A DNA stretch of 64,000 nucleotides from Sanguibacter keddieii DSM 10542 (GCF_000024925.1 NC_013521.1:2480001-2544000), one strand, 5' to 3'. Positions 27,863-38,409 are shown, numbered from the stretch's first letter. Numbers and translations are program-made. The notes: a model not told the origin generated them from the sequence alone.

Positions 27863-30802
27863 ATGACCCCCTCTGGCGACAGCACCCCGGCCGGTCGTGA
27901 GCACGACGCTCCCGACGGCGCACCACCCGCCCCGGAGGGCGACGTCCCGCAGGGCGCGTCGTCGCCGCTGCCCTTCAAGCCCAAGGGCCCCAAGCGCTGG
28001 GGTGTCGAGCCCGACTGGTCCAAGCTCCCGTCCACGCCGCGCCGTCGCTACGTCGCGGACGACGGCCCCGGGTGGGGTGCGTCGTCGATGGACGCGCGCC
28101 GGCTCGTGCAGGCCGACCCGGTCGAGACGCCGGGACCGGTTGCGCCCGGCCCCGTGGCGGATCCGCCCGCTCCTTCCTGGCAGACACCGGGGTTCGCGCC
28201 CGAGCCGGAGCCCGAAGCCCCCCTCGCGCCGCACGACGGGCCCCCGGCGGGAGGCAGCCCCGTCTCGCAGGGGACCATCCCCGACGAGGACGACGAGGAC
28301 GACGAGCTGCTCGACGAGGACGACCTCTTCGACGAATCCGCAGCCCCAGCCCCAGCCCCAGCCCCAGCCCCAGCCCCAGCCCCAGCCCCAGCCCCAGCCC
28401 CAGCCCGCACGATGATCGACGACCCGAGGACGGCAGAACCCTCCATGACTGGCTCCACCCCCACCGACCCCTACGGCGACGACCCCTATAAGGACGTCCC
28501 GTTCTTCGACGAGCCGGTGGACGACGCGTGGGGCGAGGAGATGGCCGCGGCGTCGGCCGGACGAGCAGACCGTGCCGGGAGCACCGGGAGCACAGGGAGC
28601 ACGCCGCCGAGCCGACGCCCGTCCGCCCCGCCCGCTCCTGCTCGCCCCGCGGCGGTCCGGGTGCGTCCCGGGGCCGACGAGGACCTGCGCCCGGAGGCCG
28701 AGGCAGCGCTGCGCCGCCTGGTCGGCCGGGACGACGCGGTGCTCCGCGACGACCAGTGGACCGCGATCCACGCGCTGGTCGCCGAGCAGCGTCGCGCCCT
28801 CGTGGTCCAGCGCACCGGGTGGGGCAAGTCGGCGGTGTACTTCGTCGCGACGTCGCTGCTGCGCGCCCGGGGGTCGGGCCCGACGATCATCATCTCGCCG
28901 CTGCTCGCCCTCATGCGCGACCAGATCGCCGCTGCTGGTCGGGCCGGGGTGAAGGCCGCGACCATCAACTCGGCGAACGTCACCGAGTGGGACCAGATCC
29001 ACGAGCAGATCGCCTCCGGAGACATCGACGTCCTTCTCTGCTCTCCCGAGCGCCTCAACAACCCGGGGTTCCGGGACGAGGTGCTGCCGCGCCTGGCGGC
29101 GGACGCCGGCCTCGTGGTCATCGACGAGGCTCACTGCGTGTCGGACTGGGGTCACGACTTCCGGCCGGACTACCGACGGATCCGCACGCTGCTGGCCGAG
29201 CTGCCCGAGGGCATCCCGGTGCTGGCGACGACCGCCACGGCGAACGCCCGCGTGACCCAGGACGTCGCCGAGCAGCTCGAGGTCACCGGAGAGGGCGCGG
29301 GACGCAGCGAGGTCCTCGTGCTGCGCGGCGGCCTCGACCGCGAGTCGCTCCACCTCAACGTGCTGCGTCTCGGCGACCAGCCGACGCGGGTCGCCTGGCT
29401 GCTCGAGGCGCTGCGGTCGACCGAGGGGTCGGGCATCGTCTACTGCCTCACGGTCTCCGTGGCCGAGCAGGTGGCCGCCCAGCTCAAGGCGGCCGGTCTG
29501 CCCGTCGCCGCGTACACCGGTCGCACCGACCCGACCGAGCGCGAGTCGCTCGAGGCGGACCTCAAGGCCAACCGGGTCAAGGCCCTCGTCGCGACGTCGG
29601 CGCTCGGCATGGGCTTCGACAAGCCCGACCTCGGCTTCGTGGTGCACCTCGGGGCGCCGAGCTCACCCATCGCGTACTACCAGCAGGTGGGCCGTGCGGG
29701 ACGTGGCGTCGACAGCGCGCTCGTCGTGCTGCTGCCGGGCGAGGAGGACCAGCGCATCTGGGAGTACTTCGGGTCGCTCGCCTTCCCCCGGGAGGACCAG
29801 GTCCGGGCGACGCTCGACGCGCTGTCACGCGGCGGGACGCAGTCTGCCCAGGCCCTCGAGACCCAGGTCGACCTCACGCGGTCCCGGCTCGAGATGATGC
29901 TCAAGGTCCTCGACGTCGACGGCGCGGTCAAGCGTGTCAAGGGCGGCTGGGAGTCCACCGGGCAGGGCTGGACGTACGAGGCCGACCGGTACGCCCGCGT
30001 CGAGCAGGCGCGGCTCGCCGAGCAGCGCACCATGCTCGACTACGAGTCGACGGACGGCTGCCGGATGGCCTTCCTGCGCCGCACTCTCGACGACCCCGAC
30101 CTCGCCGCCGACGAGCGCTGCGGACGGTGCGACAACTGCGGCGGCTCCACCCTCCCTGCCGCCCCGAGCACCGAGCACGTGGCCGAGGCCCGCAAGGCGA
30201 TGGACGTCCCCGGGGTGGTCGTCGAGCCGCGGAGCATGTGGCCGACCGGGATGCCCACGCTCGGGATCGACCTCAAGGGCAAGCTCTCCCCCGCCGAGAA
30301 GACCGAGCCGGGACGAGCCGTCGCCCGGCTCGACGGGCTCGGGTGGTCCCAGCCGCTGCGCGAGCTCTTCGCGTCCACCACGCCGGACGGCGAGGTGCCC
30401 GTCCACCTGAGGCGGGCCGCGGCGCAGGTCCTCGACGCCTGGTCCGGGCTCTCCGTCGACGGGGTGGTCTGCATCCGCTCGACGACCCGTCCCGTGCTCG
30501 TCGAGCACCTGGCCCGCGGGCTCGCCAAGTACCTCGACAAGCCCTTCGTCGGCACCGTCGGGCCGCTCGCCGGGCACGAGGCACCGCCGCGCCACGACGT
30601 CAACTCCGCCATGCGGCTCGCCGGGGTCGCGCAGCGCCTCGGGCTCGAGCTCTCGCCCGCGGCCTCGGGTGGTCTCGCAGGCCGCTCGATCCTGCTGGTC
30701 GACGACCGCGTCGCCTCCGGGTGGACGCTCGCCGTCGCCGGGCGACTGCTGCGCGAGGCAGGGGCCGGAGCCGTGCTGCCCTTCGTGCTGGCACAGCAGT
30801 AA
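27863..30802 (+). CDS. RecQ-family DNA helicase with disordered N-terminus and phosphoribosyltransferase-like C-terminus
   Basis: A 979-residue ATP-dependent 3'-5' helicase for recombination and repair. Residues 1-270 are Pro/Ala/acid-rich and disordered, including a PA repeat from an 11-copy hexamer. The core shows Walker A (QRTGWGKSAVYF, about 315-326), DEAH (VIDEAHCVSDWGHDFRPDYR, about 419) and motif VI (QQVGRAGRG, about 605). A zinc cluster CGRCDNC lies near 753-759. Beyond the RecQ-Ct part, residues 830-979 end in ILLVDDRVASGWTLAVAG, which looks like the PRPP-binding loop of phosphoribosyltransferases. No HRDC domain is evident. The ATG follows a leaderless promoter. Confidence 0.9.
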   Translation: MTPSGDSTPAGREHDAPDGAPPAPEGDVPQGASSPLPFKPKGPKRWGVEPDWSKLPSTPRRRYVADDGPGWGASSMDARRLVQADPVETPGPVAPGPVADPPAPSWQTPGFAPEPEPEAPLAPHDGPPAGGSPVSQGTIPDEDDEDDELLDEDDLFDESAAPAPAPAPAPAPAPAPAPAPARTMIDDPRTAEPSMTGSTPTDPYGDDPYKDVPFFDEPVDDAWGEEMAAASAGRADRAGSTGSTGSTPPSRRPSAPPAPARPAAVRVRPGADEDLRPEAEAALRRLVGRDDAVLRDDQWTAIHALVAEQRRALVVQRTGWGKSAVYFVATSLLRARGSGPTIIISPLLALMRDQIAAAGRAGVKAATINSANVTEWDQIHEQIASGDIDVLLCSPERLNNPGFRDEVLPRLAADAGLVVIDEAHCVSDWGHDFRPDYRRIRTLLAELPEGIPVLATTATANARVTQDVAEQLEVTGEGAGRSEVLVLRGGLDRESLHLNVLRLGDQPTRVAWLLEALRSTEGSGIVYCLTVSVAEQVAAQLKAAGLPVAAYTGRTDPTERESLEADLKANRVKALVATSALGMGFDKPDLGFVVHLGAPSSPIAYYQQVGRAGRGVDSALVVLLPGEEDQRIWEYFGSLAFPREDQVRATLDALSRGGTQSAQALETQVDLTRSRLEMMLKVLDVDGAVKRVKGGWESTGQGWTYEADRYARVEQARLAEQRTMLDYESTDGCRMAFLRRTLDDPDLAADERCGRCDNCGGSTLPAAPSTEHVAEARKAMDVPGVVVEPRSMWPTGMPTLGIDLKGKLSPAEKTEPGRAVARLDGLGWSQPLRELFASTTPDGEVPVHLRRAAAQVLDAWSGLSVDGVVCIRSTTRPVLVEHLARGLAKYLDKPFVGTVGPLAGHEAPPRHDVNSAMRLAGVAQRLGLELSPAASGGLAGRSILLVDDRVASGWTLAVAGRLLREAGAGAVLPFVLAQQ
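28341..28406 (+). repeat. Hexanucleotide microsatellite (CAGCCC)11 within the recQ-like gene
   Basis: Eleven perfect tandem CAGCCC units encode a Pro-Ala run in the disordered region. The period of 6 keeps the frame whatever the copy number, so slippage would change linker length only. Confidence 0.9.
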
Positions 30803-31799: not shown

Positions 31800-33530
31800 C
31801 TACTCGACGACGGTCGGCAGGTCGACGGTGAACGCCGTCCCGATGCCGACCTCGCTGGTCACGTCGAGGCGTCCGCGGTGCGCGACCACGATCGCCTTGG
31901 TGATCGCGAGACCGAGCCCGATGCCCGGGACCGAGGCGGAGGTGGCGGTGGAGGCCCGGAAGAACCGGGTCGTCAGCTGGTCGAGCTCGGTGTCGGGGAT
32001 CCCGATCCCGGTGTCGCGCACCGTGATGGTCGCGCGCTCGTCGTGCGCGACGAGCGAGAGCGTCACCTGACCGCCGGCCGGTGAGAACTTCACGGCGTTG
32101 GACAGGAGGTTGTCGACGGCCTGCCCGAGACGGGTGGCGTCGCCGCGGACGACCGTCGACAGGCTCTCGTCCATGACCACGCGCAGCCGGACCGACGCCG
32201 CTGCGGCGACGGGCTCGAAGGTCTGCGCAGCGGCGCGCAGCACCGACTCGAGCTCGGTGCTCTGGTGGACGATCGGGAACCGCCCCGCCTCGACCTGCGC
32301 GGTGAACAGCAGGTCCCCCACGAGCCGCAGCAGGCGCTGCGCGTTGCGCTCCGCCACGTCGAGGTACTGCGTCTGCTCCGCCGTCAGCGGGCCGTCCTCT
32401 TCGTCGCGCAGCAGCTCGAGGTACCCGAGGATCGAGCTGAGCGGCGTGCGGAGCTCGTGCGAGATCATCCCGACGAACTCGTCCTTGAGCCGCTCGAACT
32501 CTCTCGCCTTGGTCATGTCGGTCGCGACGAACAGGTACCCGACCACGGCGTCGTCGTCGCCGATGCGCTGCGTGGCGGCGACCTGGACCGGGAGCCGGGA
32601 GTCGTCGGGGCGGACGTAGGTCCACTCCCGGACGTCAGCAGACCCGGGGCCGACGTCCCGCACCAGCGCCGTGAGCGCAGCCTGGGCGTCGAGCGGCGTC
32701 GAGTCGCCCACGGCGGCCACCCGCTCGCGGAGCTCCTCGGCGACGTGCACGTCGGTGATGACGAGCCCGGCCTCGAGGGCCTCGTGCTGAGCCACGCCGA
32801 GCATCTTGCAGGCGCCCGGGTTCCAGGAGTCGATGCGCCCCGTGAGGTCGGTGCCGATGATCGCCTGCTCGGTCACGGCGTCCCACAGGCCGGAGAGCTG
32901 CCGGGACACCGCGGTGGCCCGGGTCTCGCTCGACCGTGCCTCGGCCGACGCCCGCACGGCGTCGACCAGGAGGGAGTCGCGCTGCGCCACGGTCGCGCGT
33001 GCGTCGGCCAGCTGGAGACGCAGACGACGCGCGATCTCGTTGATGACCAGGGCGACGAGGCCGTAGACCAGCGGGGAGAAGAGCACCCGGACGAGGTCGG
33101 AGGTCGAGCGCAGGTCGGTCAGCAGCAGCCCGGGCCCCTGCGACGTGGCGACGAGGGCGACAGCCGCGACGAGCGCGTTGTGACGGCCGGCGGCCAGCGC
33201 GATCCACACGAAGGGCACGAAGAGCATCGCGGAGTACGGCGACCCCACCCCACCGGTCCCGTACCGGACGAGCCCGAGGCCCACGAGCGACACCACCGGG
33301 ACCAGCACGACCCAGCGGTCGTCGTAGGTCTTCCAGGGGAGCACGAGCGCGGCGACCGAGACCGCGACGACCACGAGCGTCCCCGTGACCACCATCGTCG
33401 TGCTCGAGAGCACCCCGGACAGGGGAAGGGTGCCGAGCGCGAGCACGAGCACGGCGAGCGTCGGGAGCTGGTAGAGCAGCACCCCGGAACGCCCCTCCGA
33501 GACCCGACCGAAGAGCGGGTCAAGCGTCAC
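31800..33530 (-). CDS. Membrane PAS sensor histidine kinase
   Basis: A 576-residue kinase, last gene of the seven-gene cluster. About five to six N-terminal membrane helices (15-165), a helical linker, a PAS domain (about 213-340, WNPGACKMLG), then HisKA with the phospho-accepting His358 (MISHELRTPLSSILGY) and a HATPase domain with N box (DNLLSNAVKF), DTGIGIP and GIGLGLAI. GTG 33530 lies inside the end of the receiver gene (11-base overlap), so the two are coupled. The signal is unknown; likely partners are the neighbouring receiver and the receiver-deacetylase fusion. Confidence 0.92.
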   Translation of the reverse strand: MTLDPLFGRVSEGRSGVLLYQLPTLAVLVLALGTLPLSGVLSSTTMVVTGTLVVVAVSVAALVLPWKTYDDRWVVLVPVVSLVGLGLVRYGTGGVGSPYSAMLFVPFVWIALAAGRHNALVAAVALVATSQGPGLLLTDLRSTSDLVRVLFSPLVYGLVALVINEIARRLRLQLADARATVAQRDSLLVDAVRASAEARSSETRATAVSRQLSGLWDAVTEQAIIGTDLTGRIDSWNPGACKMLGVAQHEALEAGLVITDVHVAEELRERVAAVGDSTPLDAQAALTALVRDVGPGSADVREWTYVRPDDSRLPVQVAATQRIGDDDAVVGYLFVATDMTKAREFERLKDEFVGMISHELRTPLSSILGYLELLRDEEDGPLTAEQTQYLDVAERNAQRLLRLVGDLLFTAQVEAGRFPIVHQSTELESVLRAAAQTFEPVAAAASVRLRVVMDESLSTVVRGDATRLGQAVDNLLSNAVKFSPAGGQVTLSLVAHDERATITVRDTGIGIPDTELDQLTTRFFRASTATSASVPGIGLGLAITKAIVVAHRGRLDVTSEVGIGTAFTVDLPTVVE

Positions 33531-33909
33531 CCGGTGCTCCGATCATCGACCGGATGATCTCGGACAGCGTCCGAGGGCTGAACGGCTTGCGCACGAAGGT
33601 GTCGGCGCCCGTGAGGACCGCCGACTGACGCTCGAGCAGGTACACGGATGCGGAGACCATGATGATCCGCACCTCGGCGAGGGACGCGTCCCCCCGGATC
33701 CGCTCGGCCACCTCGACACCCGTCAGCCCGGGCATGGAGATGTCGAGGACCGCGAGGTCGACGCCCCCCTGCGCGATCCGCTGCCAGGCGTCGTCACCGT
33801 TGTCGAAGGAACCCACGATCTCGACGCCGGCGCGACGCGCGGCGATCGAGACCAGGCCGAGGATGTCGGCGTCGTCGTCGGCGATCACCGCCCGGGGGAC
33901 CGCGCTCAT
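33520..33909 (-). CDS. Single-domain response regulator (receiver only)
   Basis: A 129-residue REC protein with no output domain. Acidic pocket ADDDAD (about 10-15), phospho-acceptor Asp in AVLDISMPG (about 56), switch Ser in IMVSAS and Lys in VRKPFSP. Such stand-alone receivers act by protein contact or as relay intermediates. ATG 33909 overlaps the small membrane protein stop (ATGA) and its own end overlaps the kinase start. Confidence 0.93.
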   Translation of the reverse strand: MSAVPRAVIADDDADILGLVSIAARRAGVEIVGSFDNGDDAWQRIAQGGVDLAVLDISMPGLTGVEVAERIRGDASLAEVRIIMVSASVYLLERQSAVLTGADTFVRKPFSPRTLSEIIRSMIGAPGDA

Positions 33910-34046
33910 ACGAACCACACCTCTCGCACCACGAAGAAGACGCCGATGACGGCGACCGCGAGCAGGGCGAACGGGATCATGAGCCACTCCGCGCGGCGAT
34001 CACGGTCGATCTCGCGCTGCAGCTGCTCCCGGGTCGAGCGGTTCAT
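33906..34046 (-). CDS. 46-residue single-pass membrane protein
   Basis: A tiny gene wedged between the glycosyltransferase and the receiver. Residues 1-22 are strongly charged (REQLQREIDRDRRAEW), residues about 23-43 form one membrane helix (MIPFALLAVAVIGVFFVV), ending at VWFV. Both ends overlap neighbours as ATGA (ATG 34046 with the GT2 stop; its own stop with the receiver start), which is strong support for translation. Function unknown; a small subunit or anchor of the GT2 or kinase is plausible. Confidence 0.75.
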   Translation of the reverse strand: MNRSTREQLQREIDRDRRAEWLMIPFALLAVAVIGVFFVVREVWFV

Positions 34047-35536
34047 GCGAGGATCCGTCCTGTCTTCTCGGTCTTGTCCCACGACGCGTCGGCGTGCCGC
34101 AGCTCCTTGACGTAGGAGTCGACGGTGATCGCACACAAGATCGGCCCGTAGCCCACGAGGTACACGAGCAGCGGAGAGACGAACCGGCCGGCTCGGGTCC
34201 CGTCGATCTTCTTGATGAGCCATGCCCCGACCATCGAGAGCGTGATCCAGGAGTACACGAACAGTGTCCACCATCGCAGCGCTCCGTCGCTGACCTCGAC
34301 CCCGAAGATCGCGGGCACGTCGTCCGAGACCAGCCCCGGGAAGAACGTCTCTACGGTGATGAGCACCGAGACCAGGCCCGGGAAGAACACGGCCTCGCGC
34401 AAGGTCTTGCGTGCCGTCGTCGGGTCGAGCGCCAGCGACATGACCATGGTGAAGACGTAGGTGCACGCGGCGAGCGCCCAGATCGTGCGGAACACCTGAG
34501 CAGACGTCGTGCTCTCCAGGAGGTACAGCCCGACCAGACCGACCGACGACAGCACCATGGCCACCGGCTGGAACGCCACGCCGAACCACACGAGCCCGAA
34601 CGCGATGCTCCCGAGGCGGTTCCCCTCCTGCGGCCGGAACCAGAGCCTGCGGTACATCCGGGTGATGTGGACGTTGCCCCGGCCCCAGCGCAGTCGCTGC
34701 TTCCACAGGGCTGCGACGCTCTGGGGTTCCTCGGCGAGGACGACCGCGTGCGGCTCGAAGACGACCTTGCGTCCCGCGAGCTGGGTCTTGAAGGTGGTGA
34801 CGGTGTCCTCCGCGAGCGAGCTCGTGTCGATGCGCCCCCCAAGGGCCTCGAGGTTGGCCCGCGAGTGGAGCTGGGCCCCTCCCGCGAGGCACGCCACCGC
34901 CCCCATGACGTTCTGGGCGCGGCGCGACGCCGCCTGGGACAGCGCGTACTCGAGAGCGATGAACCGGGTCAGGTAGTTCTTCTCCGCGCTCCCCTCCCGG
35001 ATGTACGCGGTCACCGCACCCACCTGCTCGTCGGCGAGGTGCCGGGTCATCTTGCGCAGCGAGTCCGGCAGGTAGACCACGTCGGCGTCCATGATGAGCA
35101 GCGCCTCCATCCAGTCGTCCTCGAGGATGACGGCGAGGCCGTGGTTGAGCGTGTGGGCCTTGCCCTCTCCACCCTTCTCACGTCGCAGGTGGAACACCTG
35201 CCCGGGGTACTGCCGGGACTTGGCGAGGACGACGTCTGGGGTGTCGTCGGTGCTGGCGTCGTCGACGACGTAGACCCGCAGCGCGTCAGCCGGGTAGTCG
35301 AGGCGCATGAGCATGTCGACCGAGTTGCCGACCACCGCTCCCTCGTTCCAGGCGGGGATCACGACGGCGACGCGCGGCAGGTAGGGCGCTGCCTTGGCGT
35401 AGTGGTTGCGGAAGGCGTGCAGCGGGATGAGCACGAACTGGTAGCCCATCGCCACGATCGGGAGGGCTCCCAGCGCCACCAGCACCAGGAGGACGTAGGT
35501 GAGCGTGGTCCCTGCGACGCTCGAGGGGTCAAGCAC
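34043..35536 (-). CDS. Processive-type GT2 membrane glycosyltransferase
   Basis: A 497-residue GT-A enzyme of the BcsA/NodC/PgaC class. One N-terminal membrane segment (10-40), a catalytic domain with VVDDAST (Asp92-93), the DxD IMDADVVY (Asp150-152), the ED of LAEDTVTTF (243-244) and the processivity motif QRLRW (280-284), then about five C-terminal helices. It should join nucleotide sugars into a chain at the inner membrane; the sugar is not readable. GTG 35536 overlaps the PHP gene end by 8 bases. Pairing with a PIG-L deacetylase suggests an N-acetylated sugar. Confidence 0.88.
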   Translation of the reverse strand: MLDPSSVAGTTLTYVLLVLVALGALPIVAMGYQFVLIPLHAFRNHYAKAAPYLPRVAVVIPAWNEGAVVGNSVDMLMRLDYPADALRVYVVDDASTDDTPDVVLAKSRQYPGQVFHLRREKGGEGKAHTLNHGLAVILEDDWMEALLIMDADVVYLPDSLRKMTRHLADEQVGAVTAYIREGSAEKNYLTRFIALEYALSQAASRRAQNVMGAVACLAGGAQLHSRANLEALGGRIDTSSLAEDTVTTFKTQLAGRKVVFEPHAVVLAEEPQSVAALWKQRLRWGRGNVHITRMYRRLWFRPQEGNRLGSIAFGLVWFGVAFQPVAMVLSSVGLVGLYLLESTTSAQVFRTIWALAACTYVFTMVMSLALDPTTARKTLREAVFFPGLVSVLITVETFFPGLVSDDVPAIFGVEVSDGALRWWTLFVYSWITLSMVGAWLIKKIDGTRAGRFVSPLLVYLVGYGPILCAITVDSYVKELRHADASWDKTEKTGRILA

Positions 35537-36338
35537 GGTCGCCTGCTCCCTCGAGCGCGGCCGGCGCCCCGGGTACGGACGCCGCCGCGAGGATCGACGG
35601 GACGCGCACGTACCGACCCACGTCGCGGGCGTCGTGGCTGTCGGTCGCGACCACGAGGCTGGCGCCCGCCAGGAGGGCTGCGCGCACCGCGCGCGGTCCG
35701 GGGCAGGCCCACTTCTCGTTGACCTCGAGCGTGCTGCCCGTCTCCCGGGCGGCGCTCGCCCAGGCGTGCAGGTGCTCGTCGGTGAGGTCGGCCTCGCTCA
35801 GCCCGACCTTCGGGAGGATCGAGAACCAGTGGGCGAGCTGGATCCCCGGCTGGGCGACCATGGCCGCGACGCTCGCCGCGACGAGCTGGTCGACGGCGTC
35901 TGCCGCGCTCAGGCCGTCGGCGAGGCGCGCCCGGGTCTGCGAGGGCGACCAGGGGCCGTCGGTGCCGGGGAACTGGTGGTCGCCGACCAGGACGACGTCG
36001 AGCCCTCCGGTGCCGACGACGGCGTCACGCGGCAGGTCGAGCCGGCCGTGGACGTCGAGCAGCTTGGTCTCGACGCCGCAGCGGACCTCGAGCCCCTCGG
36101 ACACCGAGAGCGCACGGACGGTCGCGACCATCTCGGGCACCCACGCGGTCGTGGACCGCACGTGGTCGACGAAGGTGACCGACGTCAGGCCCGTGGCGAC
36201 GGCCGCCGCGAGGTTCTCGTCGACGCTGCTCACGGCGTCGTCGGAGAAGGTCGAGTGGACGTGCCCGTCGACCGTGGTCGAGGGCAGGAGGAGGGGCGTG
36301 ACGGGAGGGACGGGCTGCTCGGACCGCTCGGCCGTCAC
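35529..36338 (-). CDS. PHP-domain phosphoesterase
   Basis: A 269-residue metal-dependent hydrolase of the HisK-type PHP superfamily. Metal motifs: DGHVHSTFSDDA (1), TFVDHV (2), CGVETKLL (3), and ATDSHDARDVG near the end (4). Histidinol-phosphatase-like activity is a possible alternative, and hisD lies nearby, but coupling to GT2 and ATP-grasp genes argues for a role in this cluster. GTG 36338 overlaps the ATP-grasp stop (GTGA). Confidence 0.82.
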   Translation of the reverse strand: MTAERSEQPVPPVTPLLLPSTTVDGHVHSTFSDDAVSSVDENLAAAVATGLTSVTFVDHVRSTTAWVPEMVATVRALSVSEGLEVRCGVETKLLDVHGRLDLPRDAVVGTGGLDVVLVGDHQFPGTDGPWSPSQTRARLADGLSAADAVDQLVAASVAAMVAQPGIQLAHWFSILPKVGLSEADLTDEHLHAWASAARETGSTLEVNEKWACPGPRAVRAALLAGASLVVATDSHDARDVGRYVRVPSILAAASVPGAPAALEGAGDRA

Positions 36339-37336
36339 TGCTCCGCCCACGCCTCGTCGCGCCCGGTCACGGTCGAGGTGACGATCTCGTCGACGGGGAC
36401 GAACACGTCCTCGAGGTAGCGGACGTTCGCGATCTCCTCGAAGTCCACCCGCTCGGGCACCGGGATGCCGAGCAGCAGGTCGAGGTACAGCGACGGCATG
36501 TCGACGCCCGCGGCGATCGTCAGCGGCATGGCACCGGGGAACCGGGGGTTGATCTCGAGCAGGGCGGGACGACCGTCCTTGTCCCGGCGGAGCTGGACGT
36601 TGGCCACCCCCACGAGTCCCACGGCCCGCGCAGCAGCCGCGGCGGCCTCCACGAGCTCGGCGTCACGGACCGTGCGACCGGCGATGGAGACGCCCGAGTC
36701 GACGCGCTCACGCGTGCGCGGGACCGCGGCGATCACGTGGCCGTCGGTGCCCGCGAGCACGTCGACCGAGTACTCCGCGCCCGGCAGGTGCTCCTGGATG
36801 ATGAGGTCGGAGCCCGTGCCGATGTCCTCGAGCTCGTCCCGGTCGTCGACGAGGCGGACACCGCGCGACCCAGCCCCACGGCGGGGCTTGACGATCACCG
36901 GGAAGTCCCAGGGAGCCGCGACGCCGTCGGCGTCGAGCAGCTCGGTGGCCGGGACGCGCAGCGCGCCGGCGCAGGCCAGCGCGAGCGCGTGCTTGTCGAG
37001 GGTGCTGGCGAGGGTCTCGGCGCTCGGGGCGGCGATCTGGATGCCGTGCGCGGCGAACTCGGTGCGTCGGGCGACGAGTCCCTCGAGCTCGACGTCGACG
37101 GTCGGCACGAGGACGGTCACGCCGTCGTCACGGCACATGTCAAGCACGGTGTCGACGAACTCCGGGGCGGCGCCCCGGGGCACGATCCGCCGGTGGTCGG
37201 CGTCGACGAGGTAGAGACCGCTGGCCCAGCCGTCCATGTCGGCCGAGAAGACCTCGACGTCGTCGCGGCGCAGGAGCGAGCGCACGACGGCGACCCCTGC
37301 CGGTCCGCCGGTGCCTGTGACGAGTACTCGGGTCAT
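36335..37336 (-). CDS. ATP-grasp ligase
   Basis: A 333-residue ATP-grasp enzyme with an N-terminal Rossmann-like domain (MTRVLVTGTGGPAGVAVVRS), ATP lid DFPVIVKPRRGAGSRGV (about 144-160) and metal-binding ALLEINPRFPGA near 280. It resembles CarB-like stand-alone ligases that join a carboxylate to an amine or similar group. Substrate unknown. ATG 37336 overlaps the upstream fusion gene stop (ATGA). Confidence 0.88.
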   Translation of the reverse strand: MTRVLVTGTGGPAGVAVVRSLLRRDDVEVFSADMDGWASGLYLVDADHRRIVPRGAAPEFVDTVLDMCRDDGVTVLVPTVDVELEGLVARRTEFAAHGIQIAAPSAETLASTLDKHALALACAGALRVPATELLDADGVAAPWDFPVIVKPRRGAGSRGVRLVDDRDELEDIGTGSDLIIQEHLPGAEYSVDVLAGTDGHVIAAVPRTRERVDSGVSIAGRTVRDAELVEAAAAAARAVGLVGVANVQLRRDKDGRPALLEINPRFPGAMPLTIAAGVDMPSLYLDLLLGIPVPERVDFEEIANVRYLEDVFVPVDEIVTSTVTGRDEAWAEQ

Positions 37337-38409
37337 GTGTCGATCCGTCCTGCGTGAGAGTCGGCCAGGCGGGACGCGCCTGCCCTGGAGCCTGGGGAGA
37401 TGTCGGCCGTGTCGTGCACTACCTCGAGGGGTTCGCAGTAGTCACCACCGCCGAACCTCGACCAGTAGCGTGCCGTCGCGATGACGAAGCCCGGCTCGAG
37501 GTACCCGCGGATGTCGACCTGCGAGCCGTAGCTGGAGAGCAGCCTGAGCTTCGCGTCGGTGAAGTCGTCGATCGGCACGAAGCGCGTCGGCCGGAAGTCG
37601 ATGGTCGCGGAGGGCGACTGGAAGCAGCAGACCGTGCGCACGCTGCGGGTGGCCACGACCGCCGCGGAGTGCACCGCGCGGTGGTCCTGGTGCCGGTCGT
37701 TGATGCTGTGGGTGTAGACGATGTCGGGACGGACCTCGGCGACGACCCGCTCGATGATCCCGACCGTCGGGTCGGCGGCGCTGATGCGGGTGTCCTCGAG
37801 GTCTTCGAGGAACAGCCGGGCGCCGAGGCGCTCGGCCGCCAGGAGCGACTCGTCCTGCCGGTCGCTCGCCTCCCCGCCGCGCGAGCCGCGCGACATGGTG
37901 AGCACCACCACGGTGTCACCGGCTGCGCGGTGCGCCGAGAGGATGCCGCCGACGCCGATCTCGACGTCGTCGGGGTGCGCCCCGATCGCGAGCACCACGG
38001 TCGGTCGCTGCGCGGCCTTCTTGGCCCGGGCGGCCTCGACCAGGCGAGTGACGACCTCGACGAGGGTGGCGGCGGAGATGGGCTTGGTGAGGAACTCGTC
38101 GGCGTCGCTGCGCAGCGCCGTCACGGCGTAGTCGACCGAGGCGTGGGCGGTCATGACGACGACCGGGATCTCCGGCGACTGGGCCCGGAACCTGGCGAGC
38201 AGCTCGAGGCCGCTCACGCCGGGGAGCTCGATGTCGGTGAGCACGAGGTCGGGCTCGAAGCCCTCGATCGCGCCCGGGAGGTCCCGGGGGTCGGAGATGG
38301 CGAGCACGGTGGCACCCGCACGCTTCTCGAGCACCGTGGTGAGGAAGAGCAGGACGTCAGGGTCGTCCTCGATCACGCAGACCCGGTAGGCCCCTGTCGT
38401 GCCTGGCAT
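37333..38409 (-). CDS. Receiver-domain / PIG-L (LmbE) deacetylase fusion
   Basis: First gene of the cluster, 358 residues. Residues 8-125 are a full receiver domain: pocket EDD (14-16), acceptor Asp59 (LTDIELPG), Thr87, Lys109. A short linker leads to a PIG-L zinc deacetylase (137-358) with AHPDD (144-148) and HQDHRAVH (His240, His243, His247). So a phosphorylation input is joined directly to an enzyme that removes N-acetyl groups from sugars such as GlcNAc. All key residues of both domains are present. ATG 38409 has GAAGGGA upstream and is preferred over an in-frame extension to 38526. Confidence 0.9.
   Translation of the reverse strand: MPGTTGAYRVCVIEDDPDVLLFLTTVLEKRAGATVLAISDPRDLPGAIEGFEPDLVLTDIELPGVSGLELLARFRAQSPEIPVVVMTAHASVDYAVTALRSDADEFLTKPISAATLVEVVTRLVEAARAKKAAQRPTVVLAIGAHPDDVEIGVGGILSAHRAAGDTVVVLTMSRGSRGGEASDRQDESLLAAERLGARLFLEDLEDTRISAADPTVGIIERVVAEVRPDIVYTHSINDRHQDHRAVHSAAVVATRSVRTVCCFQSPSATIDFRPTRFVPIDDFTDAKLRLLSSYGSQVDIRGYLEPGFVIATARYWSRFGGGDYCEPLEVVHDTADISPGSRAGASRLADSHAGRIDT

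Follow-up and report, generated by a model that had tools for sequence, protein, structure and literature searches.

Seven overlapping genes on the minus strand of the Sanguibacter keddieii DSM 10542 chromosome form a conserved functional unit, whose members co-occur in related genomes and either stay together or are jointly retained. This cassette is best read as a variant of the synthase-dependent glycan systems in which a two-component system directly controls a deacetylase. It is a genuine feature that is widespread and conserved within its part of Actinomycetota and, as far as the literature was searched, undescribed. The window analyzed here is a stretch of 64,000 nucleotides (bases 2,480,001-2,544,000 of the single 4,253,413-base chromosome); positions are counted from its first base.

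Organization of the cassette

All seven genes are located between positions 31800 and 38409, on the minus strand:

37333-38409, minus strand: receiver (REC)-PIG-L fusion (Pfam Response_reg, 2.9e-26; PIG-L, 9.2e-24; motif survey of 117 distinct homologues)
36335-37336, minus strand: ATP-grasp ligase, carbamoyl-phosphate-synthase-like, of the PRK12767/ATPgrasp_Ter type (Pfam ATPgrasp_Ter, 1.9e-34)
35529-36338, minus strand: PHP-family metallo-phosphoesterase, YcdX/HisJ-like (Pfam PHP, 5.3e-07)
34043-35536, minus strand: membrane GT2 glycosyltransferase with a predicted HAS/BcsA-type fold (Pfam Glyco_tranf_2_3, 1.8e-34)
33906-34046, minus strand: 46-aa protein with a single transmembrane (TM) segment, member of a small GT2-partner family (family alignment; dN/dS 0.19)
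33520-33909, minus strand: stand-alone receiver (REC) without an output domain (Pfam Response_reg, 6.9e-22; dN/dS 0.05)
31800-33530, minus strand: membrane sensor histidine kinase with five TM segments, PAS, HisKA (SHELRTP) and HATPase_c (Pfam, hydropathy)

Gene calls and Pfam matches confirm the seven overlapping minus-strand genes of the preliminary description, and each of the six junctions is an overlap. Four overlaps comprise 4 bases (37333/37336, 36335/36338, 34043/34046 and 33906/33909), and that between PHP and GT2 comprises 8 bases (35529/35536). The REC/kinase overlap (33520/33530) is 11 bases long if the kinase starts at GTG 33530; the gene caller preferred a start at 33482, but chose the longer start in S. 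inulinus. According to the same gene caller, the longest overlapping run in the 64-kb window is the six-gene run of the cassette. Purifying selection acts on all seven genes, the 46-aa gene included, with dN/dS values of 0.05-0.32 against S. inulinus.

The borders of the cassette are clear: hisD, dnaE and lspA lie at one end, and at the other a membrane protein of the GPR1/FUN34/yaaH family and a RecQ-like helicase are encoded. These flanks, of housekeeping type, are outside the system. The helicase (window positions 28445-30802) is fused to a phosphoribosyltransferase-type domain (Pfam DEAD, Helicase_C, Pribosyltran).

The active sites are conserved across the cassette. The fusion protein has an intact receiver pocket (D15, D16, D59, T87 and K109), followed by the motifs of a zinc N-deacetylase of the PIG-L/LmbE family (H145-P146-D147-D148 and H240, D242, H243). 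The HPDD zinc/base motif and the H..DH motif are present in nearly all REC-PIG-L homologues. The ATP-grasp protein, which matches ATPgrasp_Ter, ATP-grasp_3 and PylC-like_N in Pfam and has 2pn1 as its nearest solved structure, is strongly conserved across relatives. In the PHP protein, whose nearest PDB entry is YcdX, the metal-binding residues H59, E90, H121, D233 and H235 are invariant in 23 sequences.

Conservation and co-occurrence in relatives

An ortholog of the GT2 was found in 50 of 222 genomes of the family, and genomes with a strong match are sharply separated from those without any. It is present in 20 of 396 sampled genomes of the order (the genome of the window and family members counted in) and in 3 of 396 sampled genomes of the phylum, the genome of the window being one of the three. 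Neither the GT2 nor REC-PIG-L had a match in 72,556 plasmid records. The patchy presence of the cassette and its differing chromosomal sites suggest possible horizontal transfer.

The seven families were expected to occur together in relatives, and in most they do. REC-PIG-L, ATP-grasp and PHP are all present in the loci of 93 of 117 distinct GT2 relatives, 81 of which also contain the kinase; the three enzymes occur without a kinase in 12, and the GT2 occurs without the other cassette enzymes in 13. Most of the remaining loci are cut by a contig end or have broken gene calls. The loci were gathered by GT2 similarity, so that these counts describe GT2 neighborhoods. The two collections used partly duplicate loci; the architecture and receiver-pocket counts were deduplicated, whereas the 118/134 count given below and the 135-locus counts were not.

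The gene order in relatives is REC-PIG-L, ATP-grasp, PHP, GT2, small protein, zero to two stand-alone receivers and kinase. It is kept in most of the 117 distinct loci, which come from Cellulomonadaceae, Microbacteriaceae, Nakamurella, Pseudonocardia, Blastococcus and Janibacter; Cellulomonas, Microbacterium, Leucobacter, Agromyces and Pseudoclavibacter are among the genera sharing this order, at different chromosomal sites. The relatives of the genome of the window include S. inulinus, S. gelidistatuariae and S. suarezii. Close relatives of the GT2 (about 61% identity) stand alone in Leifsonia, without the cassette or the small partner (L132-L139, L141, L144).

Within the family, every one of the 50 genomes that have the GT2 also has the ATP-grasp gene, as does one of the 172 that lack the GT2 (co-occurrence p-values for such counts ignore shared ancestry). 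In five Cellulomonas genomes (G028, G041, G042, G043, G061), the ATP-grasp and GT2 genes are on different contigs or far apart. In the split cassettes that were read, REC-PIG-L, ATP-grasp, PHP, REC and kinase are at one site (L188-L191) and the GT2 and its small partner at a separate one (L071, L072). The single exception, G064 (L192), retains ATP-grasp while the cassette GT2, small ORF and PHP are gone. Its ATP-grasp has lost 6 of 45 invariant residues, including K115, and its PIG-L 3 of 53, including the proline of HPDD, compared with losses of 0 and 1 in the split genomes. The pathway seems to decay as a whole.

Several other neighbors were set aside as functional evidence. The luciferase-like, FAD-binding and SipW-like genes look like genus-level synteny of Cellulomonas or Microbacterium. 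In many Cellulomonas loci (L042-L077), a SipW-like signal peptidase and small secreted proteins of TasA-like appearance lie downstream of the kinase; this is probably also genus-level synteny, and a link to a matrix is possible.

The GT2 synthase and its small partner

The GT2 carries QxxRW (Q280, R281, R283, W284); this motif, the DxD (D150/D152) and the ED (E243-D244) are invariant in 24 relatives. The best NCBIfam match is PgaC_IcaA (TIGR03937), but at 120.8 bits against a cut-off of 422.3 the protein is not a member. Its AlphaFold2 model (pLDDT 88) places two membrane helices at the N-terminus and several at the C-terminus. In a Foldseek search the top match is 6yv7 (PcManGT, a mannosyltransferase with a shorter synthase-like fold); HAS and BcsA also match (E about 1e-12, with query-normalized TM-scores of only 0.46-0.58). 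The predicted fold resembles the synthase type of HAS and BcsA; as its best match is the shorter mannosyltransferase, the GT2 is at most a putative processive enzyme.

We considered whether the 46-aa ORF is spurious and rejected this possibility, based on its dN/dS of 0.19 and its recurrence at the GT2 stop codon: a small TM ORF is located at exactly -4 of the stop (ATGA) in 118 of 134 loci, compared with 3 of 1,061 other genes. A Pfam search with the 46-aa protein gave no match. By analogy, we propose that it is a dedicated partner of the GT2 with a PgaD-like role; PgaD and IcaD are small, non-homologous partners that their GT2s need (PMC7112194).

Kinase and receivers

The kinase has five TM segments, a conserved R.GTGG..S motif, a PAS domain and SHELRTP (from a sample of 84 distinct relatives). 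One or two stand-alone receivers are present in many relatives. No DNA-binding domain was found in the receivers examined, which leaves the REC-PIG-L enzyme as the only visible output. The cassette had been described as containing a phosphorelay; this is not supported, as the kinase is not a hybrid and Pfam detects neither an HPt domain nor a hybrid kinase in the cassette. The system consists of one kinase with one to three receivers.

A broken receiver pocket was seen only where no kinase is linked. Of 117 distinct REC-PIG-L proteins, 108 retain the complete pocket (D-D/E-D-T-K), and 101 of the 108 have a kinase in the fetched locus. It is broken in five, none of which has a kinase in its locus and four of which keep the deacetylase motif; these five are not all independent (those of L104 and L105 are close relatives).

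Direct control of a glycan by the kinase, as originally suggested, stands insofar as the kinase is linked to a receiver with an enzymatic output. As to the glycan, we infer a surface product from the synthase-type GT2 fold, the small membrane partner and neighbors with carbohydrate-enzyme folds. The proposed sequence, in which the glycan is built first and modified afterwards, is not supported: hydropathy predicts no membrane segment in PIG-L, ATP-grasp or PHP, which makes a precursor in the cytosol or at the membrane face their more probable substrate.

Related loci and neighboring genes

A secreted-looking family without a Pfam match, termed SEC here, adjoins the cassette in two Sanguibacter relatives, Agrococcus, Pseudonocardia and three more distant loci, and SEC relatives are also found away from the cassette. 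The SEC model is an (alpha/alpha)6 barrel with Z-scores of 25-30 to carbohydrate enzymes (mean pLDDT 64; only the fold class was used). In three loci (L102, L104, L105), a protein of ~250 aa without a Pfam match directly follows SEC.

The genome of S. keddieii contains a second, unlinked operon outside the window (L208:5529-10153; G000:C1:2113528-2118152), which encodes a SEC-like (alpha/alpha) protein, a PIG-L with N-terminal hydrophobic segments, an ATP-grasp protein and another GT2, with 4-base overlaps among the last three. In a second type of locus (L198-L201, L203-L205), REC-PIG-L, in most cases alongside a kinase, faces an ATP-grasp gene, a different GT2 and a secreted-looking protein of ~380 aa; the latter has only sub-threshold GHL10 matches and no PDB profile match, and was not used as proof. 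Since the second operon and the second locus type hold the same trio, PIG-L, ATP-grasp and GT2 are a combination that recurs in different arrangements.

Seven Cellulomonas genomes (G031, G038, G049, G056, G076, G092, G100) have REC-PIG-L without either type of GT2. In the five such loci that were read (L194-L197, L206), REC-PIG-L and the kinase form a pair, without ATP-grasp or GT2. PIG-L can therefore act independently of the cassette GT2 and may accept substrates beyond what that GT2 makes.

Comparison with known systems

The cassette resembles the poly-beta-1,6-GlcNAc synthase systems PgaCD and IcaAD, in which a membrane GT2 requires a small integral-membrane partner for activity (PMC7112194), an N-deacetylase is among the linked enzymes and synthesis is under post-translational control, exerted in the Gram-negative case by c-di-GMP at PgaCD (PMC7112194). 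The differences are substantial. The cassette GT2 has a PgaC/IcaA- or HAS-like layout but lies outside those families. Its deacetylase is a PIG-L without a TM segment, and no PgaB/IcaB-type polysaccharide deacetylase is found among the seven genes. The cassette has an ATP-grasp and a PHP enzyme in addition, its control would be exerted by a receiver on the deacetylase, and its partner protein has one TM segment. Hyaluronan synthase (HAS) and the cellulose synthase BcsA share with the cassette GT2 the predicted arrangement of membrane helices around a GT-A domain, and DxD, ED and QxxRW, but identity is only 13-18%, no PilZ domain is present among the Pfam matches and the gene neighborhood is different.

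In mycothiol and bacillithiol synthesis (MshA-D, BshA-C), a PIG-L deacetylase frees the amine of glucosamine and an ATP-dependent ligase acylates it, although the cysteine-adding step of bacillithiol differs. The cassette likewise pairs a PIG-L deacetylase with an ATP-dependent ligase, but has a membrane synthase-type GT2, an ATP-grasp ligase where mycothiol synthesis uses MshC, and control through a receiver. Enzyme-output response regulators, such as CheB, PleD and RpfG, likewise combine a receiver and an enzyme in one protein, which puts catalysis under the direct control of a kinase; in the cassette, the output is PIG-L.

Possible function

We consider it somewhat probable that the cassette encodes a surface-glycan system of the synthase-dependent kind, in which phosphorylation switches a cytosolic deacetylase, i.e. 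one under post-translational two-component control. The GT2 and its small single-TM partner would build and export an aminosugar glycan, or load it onto a lipid. PIG-L would N-deacetylate a precursor in the cytosol or at the membrane face, ATP-grasp would couple the resulting amine to a carboxylate, possibly an amino acid, and PHP would dephosphorylate an intermediate. The five-TM PAS kinase would phosphorylate the receiver fused to PIG-L, such that deacetylation, and hence the chemistry of the glycan, is switched without transcription; the stand-alone receiver or receivers may serve as a competing phosphate sink or an adaptor. The PIG-L/kinase pairs that stand alone in some genomes, the solitary GT2 of Leifsonia and the three Sanguibacter relatives without a linked kinase argue against this reading. 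More tentatively, the cassette could represent a new class of bacterial glycan machinery. Its membrane sensor kinase would act on a cytosolic sugar deacetylase by direct phosphorylation, the charge and amino-acid decoration of a surface glycan would thereby change independently of transcription and c-di-GMP, and the deacetylase and ligase together would yield an undescribed N-aminoacylated aminoglycan.

A rather less likely explanation is an aminoacylated glycolipid. The GT2 would add one GlcNAc to a lipid, PIG-L would deacetylate this GlcNAc from the cytosolic side, a step known from GPI-anchor synthesis, ATP-grasp would aminoacylate the amine and the kinase would tune the charge of the membrane surface. 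PIG-L indeed belongs to the GPI de-N-acetylase family, the nearest solved GT2 fold is the short membrane mannosyltransferase PcManGT, the hydrophobic segments of the second-operon PIG-L would place it at the membrane, and PIG-L/kinase pairs exist without the cassette GT2. However, chain-building synthases typically combine QxxRW with TM helices at both the N- and the C-terminus, the dedicated TM partner parallels PgaD and IcaD, and the secreted (alpha/alpha)6-barrel neighbors suggest a polymeric substrate. These neighbors also speak against a soluble aminosugar metabolite, made as in mycothiol or bacillithiol synthesis by glycosyl transfer, dephosphorylation, PIG-L deacetylation and ATP-dependent amide ligation, as does a glycosyltransferase that is an integral-membrane, synthase-type GT2 with a small TM partner rather than a soluble GT4. 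Such a metabolite is improbable, even though the enzyme set parallels MshA/MshA2/MshB/MshC, the best NCBIfam match of PIG-L is BshB1 (78 bits, below the cut-off of 182.5) and its nearest structures are of the LmbE/BshB type.

That the carbohydrate genes and an unrelated two-component system are neighbors by chance is very improbable. The kinase and stand-alone receiver are absent in some relatives (e.g. S. gelidistatuariae and S. suarezii) and precede PIG-L in one locus (L101), as might be expected of chance neighbors, but the fusion of a receiver to the enzyme, the retention of its pocket where a kinase is linked and the split cassettes, which keep the kinase with REC-PIG-L, ATP-grasp and PHP, argue strongly against it.

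Significance

The preliminary description knew of no named system with this set of seven genes, and the literature searched agrees: we found no paper describing a REC-PIG-L protein, and searches on PIG-L with ATP-grasp and on Cellulomonas EPS gene clusters gave no paper describing the gene set of the cassette. The cassette defines a small membrane protein family that is tied to the GT2 and that no family library recognized, and it provides a marker set for finding an uncharacterized surface product of actinobacteria. Among the post-translational controls of bacterial glycan synthases, that by c-di-GMP is the best known. The cassette, which many Microbacteriaceae and Cellulomonadaceae carry, is a small system open to experiment, and in it the two-component system seems to target the chemistry itself.
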